From contig NZ_JARXNQ010000002.1 of assembly GCF_029872055.1 (NCBI RefSeq), forward strand, positions 186,001-250,000: 64,000 nucleotides of DNA, written 5' to 3'. Positions 142 to 46,885 of this stretch are shown here, piece by piece. The notes beneath the pieces are model-generated. The model was not told where the DNA came from. It saw only the letters and a program-made list of their open reading frames with translations, and searched no databases. The DNA is from Sulfurimonas sp. C5. GTDB lineage: Bacteria; Campylobacterota; Campylobacteria; Campylobacterales; Sulfurimonadaceae. A program made the translations under genes and the position numbers. Positions within the stretch are counted from its first letter, which is position 1. The number at the start of each line of letters is the position of its first letter.

Positions 142-1902
142 CTAACAACCGCGAGAGCCTTTTTCAGGACATCCACACTCATAGTCTACAAGTGTTACAT
201 TCCCTTTATTGCTTACATTTATTACCTTTTGGCGTTTAATGTAATCTCTGACAATGTCATATACCGGTCTAATCTTATCTTTACGTAGATTTGCACCTGC
301 ATTTTGCAAGTTACCACCCCAAGAAGAGACCACATACGTTTTGTTTAGATCTATTGGTTTACCTCCTACTTTAAGATTAGATATTCTCTGACCCGCTTTG
401 TTTGCAACGGCAATACTATATGTTACACCGCCTAAACGACTCATATCCCCACCTTGTTGGTAGAGTGGATTTGCATTAAATACATTATCCGCAATATCTT
501 CTAATAAAGTAGCGATTTTTGCACCTTTTAACTCAAACGTATAAACGTTCGGGTATGTAATACCACACATCTCATAAACATTTTCCATTAAAACATCTTC
601 ACCTGCTAAAACGGTAGTACCCCATCTATAGCCAGGAGTAAATGAGATATCACATTTCATTTCATCCATGATCGCATCATTAATGAGTTGATCGAAAGTT
701 GAGAAGAATGTATCTCTTTTGTAAAGAATATTTTTTGTTTGTCCCAATACTTCGTTAAACTCTGAAGCAAACGGTGCATAAAGTTCATCAATTAACTTAA
801 CGCCTTGTTCATCAGCAGGAATAAGATTGGAAGCGATAGGAACAAGTTTATACTCGTAATCTTTCACTTTACCGTCTTGAATATCAAGGTCTAAACGTCC
901 TACATATTTTCCGTGACTTCCTGCAATAACGATAACAGTATTGTTGATTGTAATCGGTTTTGGTGAAGGGTCATGTGTATGTCCGCTTAAGATAAAGTCA
1001 ATACCGTGAACTTTACGAGCTACCTCTTGATCCACGCTGAATCCATCATGTGAAAGTACAACGACACAATCAACTTTATGTTCATTTCTTAATTCATCTA
1101 CATACTCTTGAAGTGTATCTAAACGAAGACCGAAACTCCATCCTTGAGTAAACTCTTTAGGGTTTGCAGTTGAAGTGAACGGGAACGATTGACCAATAAT
1201 ACCGATTTTTGCTCCGCCACGCTCTTCGATTGTGTATGGTTCAAAAATAAGCTCTTCATACTCATCAGAGAACGGATCGTCACCAACAACATTTTGAGAA
1301 ATAAATTTTGCATCAAGTTGTTCGATCAGTTTTCTTACTTGCTCTTTACCGTATGTAAATTCCCAGTGACCAACCATTACGTCAACACCAAGATAATTTT
1401 GCGCTTTAACAATAGCTTCACCGTCAGTTTTAAGTGCTACACCAGTACCTTGCCAAGTATCACCTGAATCAAGGAACAGCACATTTTCAGCACCACGCTC
1501 TGCACGAACACGATCTAAGTAAGTTTTCATATGAGCTACACCACCCATTTTTCCAAACTTTTTCGCTAAAGCTTCAAAATCGATACAAGTATCAAAATAA
1601 GCATCTAAAGAACTTGGCTCAAGTCCGTAATGTTTTGCAAATGCTTCACCACATAAAAATCCAGGAGTCCCTACAAGATTCGGTGCAGAAATTAATGTAG
1701 ACGGCTCTCTCCAGTAAAGTGGTTTTAAGTGGGCATGTAAATCACACATATGTAAAAGTGTTACATTCCCTTTAGCATTAAAGTCATAGATATCTTTAAG
1801 AGATATCTGTGAAACTGCTTTTGGCTTTGCACAACCTGCAACAGCGGCACTTAAACCGAAAATTGCTGCGATGTGCATAAAATCTCTTCTTGAAATATCC
1901 AT
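142..1902 (-). CDS. soxB: SoxB, sulfate thiohydrolase of the Sox complex
   Basis: SoxB is the periplasmic dimanganese enzyme that hydrolyses sulfate from the cysteine-bound sulfane on SoxYZ during thiosulfate oxidation. The 586 residues start with a twin-arginine signal (RRDF at 5-8, ending near Cys24). The metallophosphoesterase domain follows: DLHAH (54-58), a DSGDTWQGTG loop near 145, the SoxB-type GHWEF in place of GNHE near 180, and SGHTHDP near 308. The C-terminal half is the 5'-nucleotidase-like domain, with NDAIM. It is the last gene of soxXYZAB and starts 9 bases after soxA ends, with an AGGATAA ribosome site. The length is normal and no key residue is missing. Confidence 0.96.
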   Translation of the reverse strand: MDISRRDFMHIAAIFGLSAAVAGCAKPKAVSQISLKDIYDFNAKGNVTLLHMCDLHAHLKPLYWREPSTLISAPNLVGTPGFLCGEAFAKHYGLEPSSLDAYFDTCIDFEALAKKFGKMGGVAHMKTYLDRVRAERGAENVLFLDSGDTWQGTGVALKTDGEAIVKAQNYLGVDVMVGHWEFTYGKEQVRKLIEQLDAKFISQNVVGDDPFSDEYEELIFEPYTIEERGGAKIGIIGQSFPFTSTANPKEFTQGWSFGLRLDTLQEYVDELRNEHKVDCVVVLSHDGFSVDQEVARKVHGIDFILSGHTHDPSPKPITINNTVIVIAGSHGKYVGRLDLDIQDGKVKDYEYKLVPIASNLIPADEQGVKLIDELYAPFASEFNEVLGQTKNILYKRDTFFSTFDQLINDAIMDEMKCDISFTPGYRWGTTVLAGEDVLMENVYEMCGITYPNVYTFELKGAKIATLLEDIADNVFNANPLYQQGGDMSRLGGVTYSIAVANKAGQRISNLKVGGKPIDLNKTYVVSSWGGNLQNAGANLRKDKIRPVYDIVRDYIKRQKVINVSNKGNVTLVDYECGCPEKGSRGC

Positions 1903-1911
1903 TATATTATC

Positions 1912-2685
1912 CTATCTTTTTAGTCCAGGGATTGCTACTTTAGCCCCTTTTGCTTTATCTGTTATATAAACTTCTAAAGCCACCATTTCAGGTGAACCTA
2001 AAGGGATTACAGCTAAAAGTGCATTTTGCATACACCCTTGGAAACGACGTTGAAGTGTTCTTAATGACGATTTTGTCATTCTGTATGCAGGCCAAGTTGC
2101 AGCAGCTGCATTTCCTGGATGACCAAGTTCCGGAAGAGGTTGTGTTCTAAGAACTGTACCAATAACATCTTGGCTATGACAGCTTAAACATGCTAATCCT
2201 CTACCACCTCTTTTTGTTTCAAATACCTCTTTACCAAGTGCATATGCAGCTTTCATTTGAGGATTTGCATTCACATCGATGTTAATTGCTTCATCGTTAG
2301 CCAAAGATTTAGCGTAAGCAATCATGTCAAACATCTCTTTGCTTTTAAGAGCAAAAGGCTTATGACCATTGTCATGCATAATTGCTTGCATTACTTGACC
2401 AAGTCCTGCAACCATATCTAATTTTTTAATATATCTAGGAAAGCCCGCGATATATTTTGGTAAGTTGTCTTCACTTACACCTAGAAATTTTGCAAGACCA
2501 GCATCACCGCCGCAGTTCTCTTCAACTAAACCACTACCAGTTTCTACATTGATATCAGCCGGGTTTGCTTCTAAAAGTTCTGCATAAAGAGCACGGTCTT
2601 TATCACTCATTGCAAACTGCTCACCTGCAAATGTTACAGATGCAAGAAGGGCAGTAGAGAGTGTTATTGTTAGTAAATTTTTCAT
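1912..2685 (-). CDS. soxA: SoxA, monoheme c-type cytochrome of SoxAX
   Basis: SoxA pairs with SoxX to join thiosulfate oxidatively to the SoxY cysteine. The 257-residue protein has a Sec signal peptide (about 1-20), a single CLSCH heme site at 166-170, and the RRFQGCM segment with Cys218, the position that carries the cysteine (persulfide) heme ligand in SoxA proteins. Cys58 has no CxxCH partner, so this is a one-heme SoxA, unlike the diheme form of some alphaproteobacteria. An AAAGGATAATCT ribosome site precedes the ATG. It lies 3 bases after soxZ and 9 before soxB. Confidence 0.93.
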   Translation of the reverse strand: MKNLLTITLSTALLASVTFAGEQFAMSDKDRALYAELLEANPADINVETGSGLVEENCGGDAGLAKFLGVSEDNLPKYIAGFPRYIKKLDMVAGLGQVMQAIMHDNGHKPFALKSKEMFDMIAYAKSLANDEAINIDVNANPQMKAAYALGKEVFETKRGGRGLACLSCHSQDVIGTVLRTQPLPELGHPGNAAAATWPAYRMTKSSLRTLQRRFQGCMQNALLAVIPLGSPEMVALEVYITDKAKGAKVAIPGLKR

Positions 2686-2688
2686 AGA

Positions 2689-3024
2689 TTATCCTTTAGG
2701 TTTAATCTTGATACTTTTTTCATAAACTTCACCGGCATTATCAGTAAATGTAACAGTTAATGTCCCTTTACCGTTAATTTTCATATTTGTAGTAAATACC
2801 GGATTAGCTGATACAGATTCCCAAACAGTCATGTTAGTAATGATTTGTCCGTTATAGTCAAACTTGATGCTGTTGATATAACTTGCAGGAACAATTTGTC
2901 CAGTTTTTTTATCTTTACGCATACCTGTTTCCATCGGATGGATAACCATAAAGTTTACTTTAACGATATCGCCGTCTTTATATTTTTTTGGTTTAATTTT
3001 AATTAATGATTGTATTTTTCCCAT
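2689..3024 (-). CDS. soxZ: SoxZ, scaffold partner of SoxY
   Basis: SoxZ forms the SoxYZ carrier on which the sulfur substrate is held between reaction steps. The 111-residue protein has no signal peptide, as is usual, since it is exported with the Tat-bearing SoxY. Its all-beta, immunoglobulin-like sequence (KVNFMVIHPMETGMRKD, then TVTFTDNAGE) is typical of the family. An AAAGGATCT ribosome site precedes the start. The gene sits between soxY and soxA in the usual order. Confidence 0.93.
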   Translation of the reverse strand: MGKIQSLIKIKPKKYKDGDIVKVNFMVIHPMETGMRKDKKTGQIVPASYINSIKFDYNGQIITNMTVWESVSANPVFTTNMKINGKGTLTVTFTDNAGEVYEKSIKIKPKG

Positions 3025-3066: not shown

Positions 3067-3534
3067 TCAACCACATCCACCGATTGTTACTTTAACGCTT
3101 TGAGAAGCTACTAAAAAGTCACCGTTGCTAAGTTCAACAAGAGCAGCAACTTCTTGAGTTTGTCCAAGTTTTACACGTGTTGCTAACATAGCTTTACCGT
3201 TTGCAGGCGTTAAATATGTATCTAAACAACGAACGTTAGAGTTTTTTGTTGCGAAAATATGGATCGCTTTTACATAATCATCAGCAGTCATAGGTGAATC
3301 TACTTCTACAGTTACAGGTACAACAGCACCATTTTCCGCAATTTCAGGTACTTTAAGATGTATTTTGTCTGATTTTACAGGTGTTTTTCCGCCAGTAATT
3401 GCTTCTAAAGCTTGTGCATAAGTAAAAGCATTTGGTCCTTTTGGTTTTGTTTCAGCTGCAAAACCCATTACAGGTAAAGCTGCACCTACAGCTACCGCAG
3501 ATGTTAATTTTTTGAAAAAATCTCTTCTTTGCAT
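3067..3534 (-). CDS. soxY: SoxY, sulfur-carrier protein with swinging-arm cysteine
   Basis: SoxY carries the pathway intermediates as adducts on a C-terminal cysteine. The 155 residues begin with a twin-arginine signal (MQRRDFFKK, then a hydrophobic stretch to about residue 27) and end in VTIGGCG, the defining swinging arm with Cys154 as the carrier residue. The lone extra Cys near 108 is not part of a known motif. It is followed by soxZ after 42 bases, and both products would leave the cell together through the Tat system. Confidence 0.95.
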   Translation of the reverse strand: MQRRDFFKKLTSAVAVGAALPVMGFAAETKPKGPNAFTYAQALEAITGGKTPVKSDKIHLKVPEIAENGAVVPVTVEVDSPMTADDYVKAIHIFATKNSNVRCLDTYLTPANGKAMLATRVKLGQTQEVAALVELSNGDFLVASQSVKVTIGGCG

Positions 3535-3546
3535 TTTTCTTCCTTT

Positions 3547-4071
3547 TTATTTTGGTGATACGATATATGAAGTAATGTCACATATCTCTCTTTCAGTAAA
3601 TAAACCAGTTGTTAAATTAATAGTCATATGTGTCGTCGGATTGTCAACACGTGCATCAGCAATTTTTTGATAAACAAATTGATTGTCTCTTGCACCGCTA
3701 TCAATAAAGTTAGTTTTATAGTTGCTGAGATCAGGACCAACATTTCCTGCTCCATTAGCACCTTCAATGTTATGGCATGCTACACAGTTACCATACTGTT
3801 TTGCAGAACCGTCACTATTTTTTTTACTTAACCCTTTTGGTGGTGTTTTTTTAGCTTTACTACCGTTTAGGTTATGAAAAATAAATTTTCCTCTTGCAAT
3901 AGCTTCGGGATTATTTGTTATACATCCTTGAGGCATTGCATACTCTTTTGCCGGAGCCAATAGGTCTTTTTCAATAATCTTACTTGCATTTGGATTTTCA
4001 ACTACACCGCTGTAATCAGCAGCAAAAAGTGAGCATCCAAGAAGTATAGAAGCTGTTAGACTCTTACGCAT
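3547..4071 (-). CDS. soxX: SoxX, monoheme c-type cytochrome of SoxAX
   Basis: SoxX takes electrons from SoxA and passes them to the respiratory chain. The 174-residue protein has a short Sec signal (cleavage near LFAADY), one CVACH heme site at 96-100 and a C-terminal THMTINL segment that can supply the distal methionine. It is the first gene of the sox operon. A very strong ribosome site (GGAGGAAGG, 4075-4084) lies a few bases before the ATG. The 82-base gap to the upstream kinase holds the candidate regulated promoter described separately. Confidence 0.92.
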   Translation of the reverse strand: MRKSLTASILLGCSLFAADYSGVVENPNASKIIEKDLLAPAKEYAMPQGCITNNPEAIARGKFIFHNLNGSKAKKTPPKGLSKKNSDGSAKQYGNCVACHNIEGANGAGNVGPDLSNYKTNFIDSGARDNQFVYQKIADARVDNPTTHMTINLTTGLFTEREICDITSYIVSPK

Positions 4072-4102
4072 GATTCCTTCCTCCTAATCAATTTCAGGAA
4101 CA

Positions 4103-4134
4103 AGTTTATCAGTGAACTGTAAAATTTGTGTAAA
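4103..4134 (-). promoter_or_regulatory. candidate response-regulator operator and promoter of soxX
   Basis: On the minus strand two copies of ATTTTACA stand 11 bases apart, with TTTACA cores at 4129-4134 and 4118-4123. After 9 bases comes a TAAACT hexamer (4103-4108) that can act as -10. This half-site/half-site/9-base/-10 geometry matches PhoB/OmpR-type activation and is the same as in the candidate pho boxes of this window, with a different half-site sequence. The OmpR-type regulator gene lies just upstream. The site is seen in the sequence; binding is inferred. Confidence 0.5.
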
Positions 4135-4153
4135 ATAAAAAAAATTTATGTAA

Positions 4154-5317
4154 TTATTTTTTGATGCAGAGCTTGGTTGGGAATTTATAGGTAAATGTAG
4201 AGCCGTTTTTTAGCTTGGAATCTATATCTAATTCGATGTCATATTCGTCAATAATTGATTTTACTATATTTAAACCGATACCGAAGCCACCTTTGTTTTT
4301 GTCTTCTCTGTAGTAACGTTTAAATATCTTATCAACATCTTTTATACCGATACCGTAATCGCGTACACTTAAATAACAGCCATCTTTCTGTGTAAAAAGA
4401 TAGACTTCGATAATATTATTCTCAAATGAGTATTTAATGGCATTGGAGATATTGTTATCAACGATTTTGCGTAATTTTTTAGGATTCATAACAATGAAGA
4501 GTTGAGCTTGCAGGTGCATGTTGATTGTGATATCTTTCATCCTCGCTACATCTGTAAAGTATTCTATTCTCTCTCTTACGAACTGGCTTAAATTGATCTC
4601 TTCATCAAGATAATCCAAACGGTTATATTTAATAAGGTAGTCCATATCGTCATAAATATTTGAGAGCACTTTTGTCGCTGCTTTAATTCTTTGAAAATAT
4701 TTATTTGGTTCATTTTTTCTATTATAAAGATCAATGTTTACATTAATAATAGATAAGGGTGTGTTGATCTCATGAATAGAATCTTTAATAAAACTGTCAA
4801 GTTGTTTATTGAGAGCTTTAAAGGGTTCGGCAAAACGATTAAGAAAAAGCATACTGAGTAAAAACACGAGAACGGTAATTGATAAAAGTATGACGGCAAC
4901 ATTCATATATAAGGTAGAGTAGGAAATTTTATTACTGAGTATGAGGTATTCTGCCCCGAAGTATCTCGATTTTGGCAATTGAATTGTTAAATATGCCTGT
5001 GTCCCTTCTGTATAATAACCGTTTTTAAAAGCAGGTATATTGGAATCTATTAGTGTGAAAATTGGTTTGAACCTTGCATCGTAAAGACCTGATTTTAAAG
5101 TGTTGAAACGCGGGTACTCAAAATAAACTTCGTTTTGATCATACTCTTCCATAGATTTTATAATGAGAAGAGATTTCTCTTTTAGAAAGATTTCATTTTG
5201 AATGGAGTATATATTTTTCATATACAGCAGGTATATTACAAGAGGTGCTAAAAGTATAATAGCAATTAATGATGTATAAAACAGAGCATTTTGAATCGCA
5301 TATCTATTGTCGTTCAA
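4154..5317 (-). CDS. two-component sensor histidine kinase next to sox
   Basis: A 387-residue membrane kinase. Segments at about 10-33 and 135-158 span the membrane and bracket a small periplasmic domain of about 100 residues. The phospho-acceptor is His182 in HEINTPLS; NNISNAIKYS (N box), DYGIGIKD (G1) and GGFGIGLNIVK (G2) form the ATPase domain. It overlaps the response-regulator gene by 14 bases, so the two are translationally coupled and almost certainly partners. The next gene downstream is soxX. Control of sulfur oxidation is inferred from position. The signal is unknown. Confidence 0.9.
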   Translation of the reverse strand: MNDNRYAIQNALFYTSLIAIILLAPLVIYLLYMKNIYSIQNEIFLKEKSLLIIKSMEEYDQNEVYFEYPRFNTLKSGLYDARFKPIFTLIDSNIPAFKNGYYTEGTQAYLTIQLPKSRYFGAEYLILSNKISYSTLYMNVAVILLSITVLVFLLSMLFLNRFAEPFKALNKQLDSFIKDSIHEINTPLSIINVNIDLYNRKNEPNKYFQRIKAATKVLSNIYDDMDYLIKYNRLDYLDEEINLSQFVRERIEYFTDVARMKDITINMHLQAQLFIVMNPKKLRKIVDNNISNAIKYSFENNIIEVYLFTQKDGCYLSVRDYGIGIKDVDKIFKRYYREDKNKGGFGIGLNIVKSIIDEYDIELDIDSKLKNGSTFTYKFPTKLCIKK

Positions 5318-5960
5318 TTATATATCCTACCGAGCGTCTGTTTACTATAATCCCTTCAGGAATTTTTTGACGGAGATTTTTTAACTGTACACGGATAGTC
5401 GCCGGTTCAACATACTCACCCCATACTTCATCTTGAAACATATCAATTGAAACAACGGCATTTTTATGTTTAATAAGTACTTTTAAAAGGTCATTTTCTG
5501 TTTTTCTCAGCACTACCTCTTTATCGTTTACAAACAATTGCTCTTTGTTCATATCATATAAAGCATTATGTCCAAGATCAATCATATCTGCATTATCTGC
5601 ATAAAAACTTTTGCATGCTTGATTAATACGCACTTCCAGCTCTTCAAGATCAAATGGTTTGCGTATATAGTCACAACAGCCTCTTTCATACCCCTCCTTG
5701 AGACTTCGGATATCCGTCATTGACGTTAGAAAGATGGTTGGAATCTTTCTATTGCTTTTGCGAAGGTTTTCAAGCAGTTCAAAACCGTTCATAGAAGGAA
5801 CGTTTACATCCAACAGGAGAAGATCATAACTTTTTTCATGAATAGCACTGTATGCTTCAAAGCCATCCATAAAACACTCTACGTCATAGCCTAAATCTTC
5901 TAAAAATTCTTTAATACTGATTCGTAATGAATACTCATCTTCTAATAGTAAAATTTTCAT
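5304..5960 (-). CDS. OmpR/PhoB-family response regulator next to sox
   Basis: A 218-residue regulator with an N-terminal receiver domain (acidic pair ED at 7-8, phospho-acceptor Asp51 in LLLLDVNVP, conserved Lys in IRKPFD near 102) and a C-terminal winged-helix domain (about 125-218, with VWGEYVEPATIRVQLKNLRQKI and the end RRSVGYII). Regulators of this family bind tandem direct repeats. An 11-bp direct repeat of the right geometry lies before soxX. Its gene overlaps the Cache gene by 4 bases and the kinase gene by 14. Confidence 0.92.
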   Translation of the reverse strand: MKILLLEDEYSLRISIKEFLEDLGYDVECFMDGFEAYSAIHEKSYDLLLLDVNVPSMNGFELLENLRKSNRKIPTIFLTSMTDIRSLKEGYERGCCDYIRKPFDLEELEVRINQACKSFYADNADMIDLGHNALYDMNKEQLFVNDKEVVLRKTENDLLKVLIKHKNAVVSIDMFQDEVWGEYVEPATIRVQLKNLRQKIPEGIIVNRRSVGYIIERQ

Positions 5961-7051
5961 TTTATTTTCCCGTCGATCCTGTGTGTGATTTTATTTTTCA
6001 AAAGAAGTTGTATCAATTCATCTTTTGAATAGCCTTCAAGCTTTTTATACGCCTCTTGTGTATATTTCTTTTTATCTTCATCAGAAATAGCATTCTGTAA
6101 TAAAAGAAGTTCTCTAGGAGTATAATCTGCAAACATATCTTCTTTATAGTATTTTGTTTTTTCAACTTTGTACAATGTGCTTCTGGTAACATTTATTAAA
6201 AATGAAATATCATCTTCTGGATCATTAAAATAGTCAAGATATTTGTTTGGTAGAACAAATACAAAAGCACCTATAATATCTCCTGCACCGTTTTTCATGG
6301 TTTCATAAAATATATGAAGTCCTTTGCTGTAAAGCATTCTGTTTGCTTTTAATGTTTTAAAGTCGATTGAATTTAGAACATTTAAATAATTGGCATTGTA
6401 GTTTGTATTTGCAATAATGTATTGATTGATAGTTTTATTCTCTTGCATGAAAATAGCTGTCTGAAAATATTTGTCATCCATCAGTACATAGAGATCGATA
6501 CCTTGTGTTCTAAAGAGTTCGGTCATCGGTTCAAAAAAGTCAATAACCTCTACAAAACCGAGTAGTGTATCGTTTTTGTAAATGGGCACGGTTGCTTTAA
6601 AGCCTAAACGACGTCCTACCTCTATAGATGTTCTTGGAGTATTGTGTGTTTTAAAATAATTTAGGTCGGTTCTGTAGTTTCCAAGAGGCATTCCTGCATA
6701 AACGGTATCCCAGCTTCGTGCAAAGATAAGATAATCGGCAGTAATGACTTGAGAGCGGACATGTTTGTGTGTATATTGTTCAATTGCATTTGTAATAGTA
6801 GAAAGGATTCGATACCCTTGATCTTCATCATCATTATCCAGCGCATTAACGAGTGCACTGTTTTGGGAAAGGACTAGGGCAAACTCCAACGCACCGAGTT
6901 GATTTACACGTAATTGAGCATTGAGTTCAGATGTTATTTGATCAAAAATATGGTTAAGTTTTTCCTCTTTACTTTCATATCTAAAATAAAAAAATATAGT
7001 TATAATTATGAATATAACGAAAGTAAAAAGTATCAAAAGTATCTTTTTCAT
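5957..7051 (-). CDS. membrane-anchored Cache-type sensor without output domain
   Basis: The 364-residue protein has one N-terminal membrane helix (about 5-23) followed by an extracytoplasmic region with the look of a double Cache sensor (YLIFARSWDTVYAGMPLGNYRTDL, then GRRLGFKATVPIYKNDTLLGFVEVIDFF). After about residue 285 comes a charged tail with the YTPRELLLLQNAISDEDKKKYTQ helix. No kinase, GGDEF or methyl-accepting domain is present and I see no second membrane helix. It therefore probably binds a ligand and passes the signal to the coupled kinase. No Shine-Dalgarno is present; a -10-like TACAAT ends 6 bases before the ATG. Confidence 0.75.
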   Translation of the reverse strand: MKKILLILFTFVIFIIITIFFYFRYESKEEKLNHIFDQITSELNAQLRVNQLGALEFALVLSQNSALVNALDNDDEDQGYRILSTITNAIEQYTHKHVRSQVITADYLIFARSWDTVYAGMPLGNYRTDLNYFKTHNTPRTSIEVGRRLGFKATVPIYKNDTLLGFVEVIDFFEPMTELFRTQGIDLYVLMDDKYFQTAIFMQENKTINQYIIANTNYNANYLNVLNSIDFKTLKANRMLYSKGLHIFYETMKNGAGDIIGAFVFVLPNKYLDYFNDPEDDISFLINVTRSTLYKVEKTKYYKEDMFADYTPRELLLLQNAISDEDKKKYTQEAYKKLEGYSKDELIQLLLKNKITHRIDGKIK

Positions 7052-39132: not shown

Positions 39133-39164
39133 ATGATAAGCTAGCTAGATTACATTTGGATTAC
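39133..39164 (-). promoter_or_regulatory. candidate pho box and promoter of the olsF unit
   Basis: On the coding strand GTAATC-CAAAT-GTAATC (39148-39164), nine bases, then TATCAT (39133-39138) as -10. It sits in the 69-base gap between the PhoR-like gene and the 76-residue gene. Confidence 0.7.
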
Positions 39165-43824: not shown

Positions 43825-43857
43825 ATTATATATAAAATAAGATTACAAGAGGATTAC
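43825..43857 (-). promoter_or_regulatory. candidate pho box and promoter of pstC
   Basis: The coding strand reads GTAATC-CTCTT-GTAATC (43841-43857), ten bases, then TATAAT (43825-43830). It lies between the pstS terminator and pstC, giving pstCAB-phoU a promoter of its own. Confidence 0.7.
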
Positions 43858-46868: not shown

Positions 46869-46885
46869 CGAAATAAGGGTTGTTT

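Follow-up and report, generated by a model that had tools for sequence, protein, structure and literature searches.

A conserved set of three genes, for a Cache sensor, an OmpR/PhoB-type response regulator and a sensor histidine kinase, together with a tandem TTTACA repeat in front of soxX, very probably makes up the missing sox switch of the Campylobacterota. From gene order and promoter sequence it is highly likely that this system activates soxXYZAB through the repeat, in the manner of a PhoB-like class II activator. The Campylobacterota are leading oxidisers of sulfur at vents and redoxclines, and sox occurs in about 31% of their species (PMC10451225). A review of respiratory regulation in the phylum mentions sox once and names no regulator (PMC6682613). 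No earlier description of this regulator, nor of any campylobacterotal sox regulator, was found in the literature searched, subscription papers lying mostly outside it. With regulator, operator and sensor defined, the question of sox control becomes directly testable, and the operator can be used to predict which genomes control sox by way of this system.

Gene set and candidate operator

The window, a stretch of 64,000 nucleotides analysed from the 2.06 Mb genome of Sulfurimonas sp. C5, carries the sensor, regulator, kinase and sox genes all on its minus strand:

5957–7051, minus strand: Cache sensor, 364 amino acids; one N-terminal membrane anchor, a predicted double-Cache domain and a C-terminal tail, without output domain
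5304–5960, minus strand: OmpR/PhoB-type response regulator, 218 amino acids; receiver and winged helix (PF00072 and PF00486 above cut-off)
4154–5317, minus strand: sensor histidine kinase, 387 amino acids; PhoR-like HisKA/HATPase core, TTG start
4129–4134, minus strand: upstream half-site TTTACA of the candidate operator; first four bases invariant, C 96% and A 92% in 78 non-redundant promoters
4118–4123, minus strand: downstream half-site TTTACA at an 11-base period; 97–100% per column in the 78 promoters
4103–4108, minus strand: -10 box TAAACT (TAnnnT), 9 bases past the second half-site; first T, A and last T 100% in the 78 promoters
3547–4071, minus strand: soxX, thiosulfate-oxidising cytochrome subunit (TIGR04485), first gene of the putatively controlled operon
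3067–3534, minus strand: soxY (PF13501)
2689–3024, minus strand: soxZ (PF08770)
1912–2685, minus strand: soxA (TIGR04484)
142–1902, minus strand: soxB (TIGR04486)

Gene coordinates and profile matches bear out the order proposed in a sequence-only reading of this DNA, in which three overlapping genes for a Cache protein, an OmpR-type regulator and a kinase are followed by soxXYZAB. The Cache and regulator genes overlap by 4 bases and the regulator and kinase genes by 14, and the 82 bases between kinase and soxX hold the repeat and then a ribosome-binding site. By domain content the regulator and kinase would form an OmpR/PhoB-type two-component system. The kinase, with two membrane segments as judged from its sequence, scored above cut-off for PF02518 and marginally under it for HisKA (26.7 against 26.9 bits). 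Both proteins are nearest to the RprY/PhoB and PhoR models, yet far under their cut-offs, and the regulator is not the curated PhoB equivalog, as it scores 110 bits on TIGR02154, whose cut-off is 296. Its recognition-helix residues IRVQ are retained in the sox-linked orthologues and differ in two paralogues from its own genome. The Cache sensor had no significant match to any Pfam or NCBIfam family, including the Pfam dCache model; its predicted structure (pLDDT 84) matches double-Cache domains, the best solved structure being DctB (E 2e-8), and a dCache fold outside the membrane is predicted. A sensor signature of RSW, GxP and ExGR is conserved but is present too in a related chemoreceptor, and the ligand can therefore not be read from it.

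The whole element at 4103–4134 on the minus strand reads TTTACA-N5-TTTACA-N9-TAAACT. The 11-base-period repeat, the 9-base gap and the TAAACT had been described correctly; the positions first given for the repeat, 4129 and 4118, mark the 3'-terminal base of each core. A sigma-70 -35 box was rejected, being absent at a spacing of 16–18 from the soxX promoters, where the best match to TTGACA was mostly 2–3 of 6 bases. One of 78 promoters has the consensus -10, TATAAT; the other 77 depart from it. Such a repeat in place of a -35 box, some 9–10 bases before the -10, matches the architecture of a PhoB class II promoter. Three tandem TTTACA repeats in 11-base steps, instead of two, were seen upstream of soxX in three loci (L081, L114 and L126).

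Pho boxes in the same window, GTAATC-N5-GTAATC-N9-TATCAT at 39164 and GTAATC-N5-GTAATC-N10-TATAAT at 43857 (both minus strand), confirm that this geometry is shared with the pho system and that the half-site is different. A third repeat resembling a pho box, GTAACC-N5-GTAACC, lies at 46869 (minus strand), and all three are found around apparent phosphate-transport genes.

Conservation and decay of the operator across sox loci

Sixty loci fetched by place and 80 named genome loci were sampled, and 118 soxX promoters from Sulfurimonas, Sulfuricurvum, Sulfurovum and relatives were scored against a frame of the 15 fixed bases of the element. The order Cache-regulator-kinase-soxXYZAB is standard in these three genera, in Hydrogenimonas and in relatives. 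The soxX upstream regions matched the frame at 15/15 in 97 cases and at 14/15 in 19, thus in 116 of 118. One of the two exceptions (L128) has a 10-base gap and scores 14/15 in this N10 form and 11/15 in the N9 frame; the N10 form was also found in another five loci, all belonging to a single family (f7, genera g37 and g45). In the other exception (L306), a single block comprising the operator, the kinase and most of the regulator is missing, through either deletion or assembly error; in this Sulfurimonas MAG (SI060_bin9, L306:7095-7679) the first 20 codons of the regulator continue directly into soxX. Pairwise identity among 78 non-redundant loci was 98% in the motif columns, 49% in the spacers and 33% in the 52 bases upstream. 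Lack of conservation of the repeat where the regulator is conserved had been named as grounds for refutation; that test was run, and the repeat was present, in N9 or N10 form, at every scored soxX promoter in genomes with the regulator set. In L094, from a genome of the same family, soxX is annotated with a late start; the operator is intact (15/15), and a few hundred bases of inserted sequence, with what seem to be many inverted repeats, lie between it and the start of soxX.

The element tracks sox and not the end of the kinase gene. It is still found at soxX where the sensor genes lie 2–3 kb off (L092, L104, L350), where they are about 10 kb off and divergent (L127), and where they are on another contig (G433, G162, G374, G021), and no site was found 3' of the kinase where sox is not adjacent to the sensor genes (L297, L370, L103). 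A single Sulfurovum (L358/L101) is the exception, with a perfect site after the kinase (L358:5543, L101:4907) where soxX normally stands. There it precedes a short ORF and a 470-amino-acid ORF that by eye looks like a porin, and a further site stands at soxX in the distant sox cluster, which is on another contig.

Among 399 genomes of the order, the Cache protein was present in 67 of the 73 with SoxX and in 5 of the 326 without (Fisher p = 1.5e-62, with genomes counted as independent despite their relatedness). Two of the genomes with soxX and no Cache match (G193, G203) have kept regulator, kinase and site, and in a third (G017), which has kept at least a kinase fragment, both half-sites read TTTACG. 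The sister genomes G290 and G350, 99% complete and with soxX present, had no Cache protein and no kinase orthologue, their best kinase match of 1e-48 being at the level of a paralogue (5.5e-98 in G302 of the same family). In both, the half-sites are TTTAGG and TTTATA and the -10 is TATAAT. The G290 promoter, TTTAGG-ATTTT-TTTATA-TTTCTTTGT-TATAAT, can be compared with that of a relative that has the system (L099), TTTACA-ATTTT-TTTACA-CTTCTTTGT-TAAGAT: the spacers are almost alike, and in G290 both half-sites are disrupted and the -10 now fits the consensus. This is the pattern predicted for loss of an activator. A distant genome with soxX and no Cache protein (G007) lacked both the kinase orthologue and the site. 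The regulator itself was presumably lost as well in G290, G350 and G007, given that kinase and Cache protein are absent there. The cases in which the regulator set was lost and the site decayed comprise one sister pair, a distant genome and L306, a possible assembly artefact.

These promoters also bear on the direction of control. That the regulator binds the repeat as a repressor of sox, released on sensing of a sulfur compound, is unlikely, even if a dimer bound at about -38 to -22 could stand in the way of RNA polymerase and the alphaproteobacterial SoxR controls sox by repression (PMC10451225). A promoter without a -35 box and with a non-consensus -10, in the same geometry as the pho boxes of the window, argues against repression, as does the change of the -10 to TATAAT where kinase and Cache protein were lost, which compensates for a lost activator and not for a lost repressor.

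Other sites and sister sensor sets

The 15-base frame had three exact matches in the 2.06 Mb genome, the reversed control pattern none, and about 0.07 are predicted from base composition by hand estimate; in the window, where shuffles give 1.03 matches at two or fewer mismatches, the sox site is the sole exact match. All three sites are at sulfur genes: sox, a DUF302 gene and a gene for a YeeE/TsuA-like (PF04143) thiosulfate transporter. The DUF302 site precedes the DUF302 and DsrE-like genes that close the sox cluster, in which soxB is followed by an OprD-type porin, a beta-lactamase fold protein, a thioredoxin and DsrE, and the transporter site precedes the YeeE/TsuA-like gene and one for cytochrome b561. 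YeeE-like SoxT proteins of bacteria import sulfur that is used in oxidation and signalling (PMC11582611). Only the two closest relatives (G248 and G318) retain the yeeE and DUF302 sites, and sox is therefore taken to be the ancient core target.

A 14/15 copy of the operator was seen at a gene for a dCache_3 chemoreceptor with a zinc-binding domain (L168:3288-5417; site G000:C2:102219), which may sense the same compound in chemotaxis; the site scores 13/15 in two siblings and at background in nearly all others. A wide regulon was rejected, given three exact sites in the genome, yeeE and DUF302 sites confined to close relatives and a chemoreceptor site mostly at background. The idea that the sensor set controls its own expression via this site was rejected as well, since 124 upstream regions of Cache genes mostly score at background; with no site in front of them, the sensor genes are probably made independently of it.

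Sister sets of Cache, regulator and kinase genes, with Cache proteins 25–29% and regulators 50–55% identical to those of the sox set, precede genes for CxxCH proteins, and in several (L402, L403, L408) TTTACA repeats stand before the CxxCH-protein genes. The sequence-only reading had expected a half-site distinct from the pho box, as for a paralogous regulator; the difference from the pho boxes stands, but the half-site is not private to sox, being shared with these cytochrome-linked sets, so that cross-talk is possible. Four sister sets (L402, L403, L404 and L408, in G077, G090, G093 and G149), with regulators 52–53% identical, show TTTACA or TACAC direct repeats at an 11-base period ahead of the CxxCH-protein genes. 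A more distant paralogue in the own genome (regulator 42% identical, no adjoining Cache gene) has TTCACA-N5-TTCACA-N9-TATACT ahead of a gene for a small cytochrome c (L172:489-520; G000:C3, minus strand), which is the geometry of the sox operator with one base changed per half-site. The sox set therefore represents a single branch within a family of such sets, which appear to control periplasmic electron-transfer genes.

With sister regulators using the same half-site, the repeat might be thought the site of another, global factor, the kinase and regulator controlling something else, the more so as one conserved element and linkage do not amount to binding. This is improbable: just three exact sites occur in the genome, the site is degraded where kinase orthologue and Cache protein are missing, and the sox-linked regulators share recognition-helix residues that differ in the two paralogues. 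T tracts at a spacing of about 11 bases occur upstream of Campylobacterota sigma-70 promoters, and the region is A+T-rich; that the repeat is such a periodic T-rich stretch, or reflects shared ancestry, is nevertheless hardly credible when the C and A of TTTACA are 92–98% conserved with an exact N5 spacer against 33% in the upstream flank, Cache-gene upstream regions score at background, and the motif stood at 42 among the matches listed for 60 genomes against about 9 for the reversed-pattern control.

Proposed mechanism and relation to known systems

The probable course of sox activation by the Cache-kinase-regulator system is as follows. The membrane-anchored periplasmic double-Cache protein would sense some reduced sulfur compound, with thiosulfate or a related anion the likeliest candidate, and, as co-inheritance suggests, act via the co-encoded PhoR-like kinase, which would phosphorylate the regulator. 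Geometry points to a regulator dimer bound head-to-tail to TTTACA-N5-TTTACA at about -38 to -22. There it would stand in for the missing -35 box and recruit sigma-70 RNA polymerase to the weak -10, a class II activation, as by PhoB, that is inferred because the repeat is in the PhoB position, the -35 box is absent and the -10 is non-consensus. The same site would serve the YeeE/TsuA-like transporter and DUF302 genes in this genome and the two closest relatives. Thiosulfate is favoured as the signal because of the targets and because soxABXY1Z1 was expressed more on thiosulfate, and soxCDY2Z2 on sulfur, in a study that gives no mechanism (PMC10045233). Whether the stand-alone dCache protein is the true sulfur-compound receptor and signals to the kinase in the periplasm, in a module copied to other periplasmic electron-transfer genes, is an evenly balanced proposition. 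If it holds, sox in chemolithotrophic Campylobacterota is switched by substrate sensing outside the cytoplasm, unlike by SoxR.

SoxR and sHdrR share with the sox set the control of sox and thiosulfate oxidation but are one-component ArsR-type repressors that respond to sulfane sulfur (PMC10451225, PMC12423496), and SoxR is reported as confined to Proteobacteria (PMC10451225). Its absence here, as had been noted, agrees with a single ArsR-family protein over cut-off in the genome, of metalloregulator type, on another contig and not at sox. RsrS-RsrR and TspS-TspR of Acidithiobacillus caldus, of another bacterial class, are likewise two-component systems for thiosulfate oxidation beside tetH or sox clusters, and RsrR is EnvZ/OmpR-like; RsrR differs in binding a 19-bp inverted repeat at tetH and TspS-TspR in being sigma-54 dependent, and the parts of the source consulted mention no dCache protein (PMC5093147).

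The closest parallels in architecture are with PhoR-PhoB and the pho box of E. coli and others (PMC4415409), which likewise have an OmpR-family regulator, a PhoR-like kinase core and two direct repeats of 11-base period in the -35 position followed by a -10; the sox set differs in its TTTACA half-site (the pho motif here being GTAATC), the extra dCache protein and the sox target. Within the Campylobacterota, PceP/PceS of Sulfurospirillum also has an OmpR-family regulator and direct repeats at promoters of an electron-transfer operon; this system, tested by gel-shift, has short direct repeats with 6-base gaps (PMC7755780). It differs from the sox set in its CTATW motif, in a seven-membrane-helix kinase with no separate Cache protein reported, and in its target, organohalide genes.
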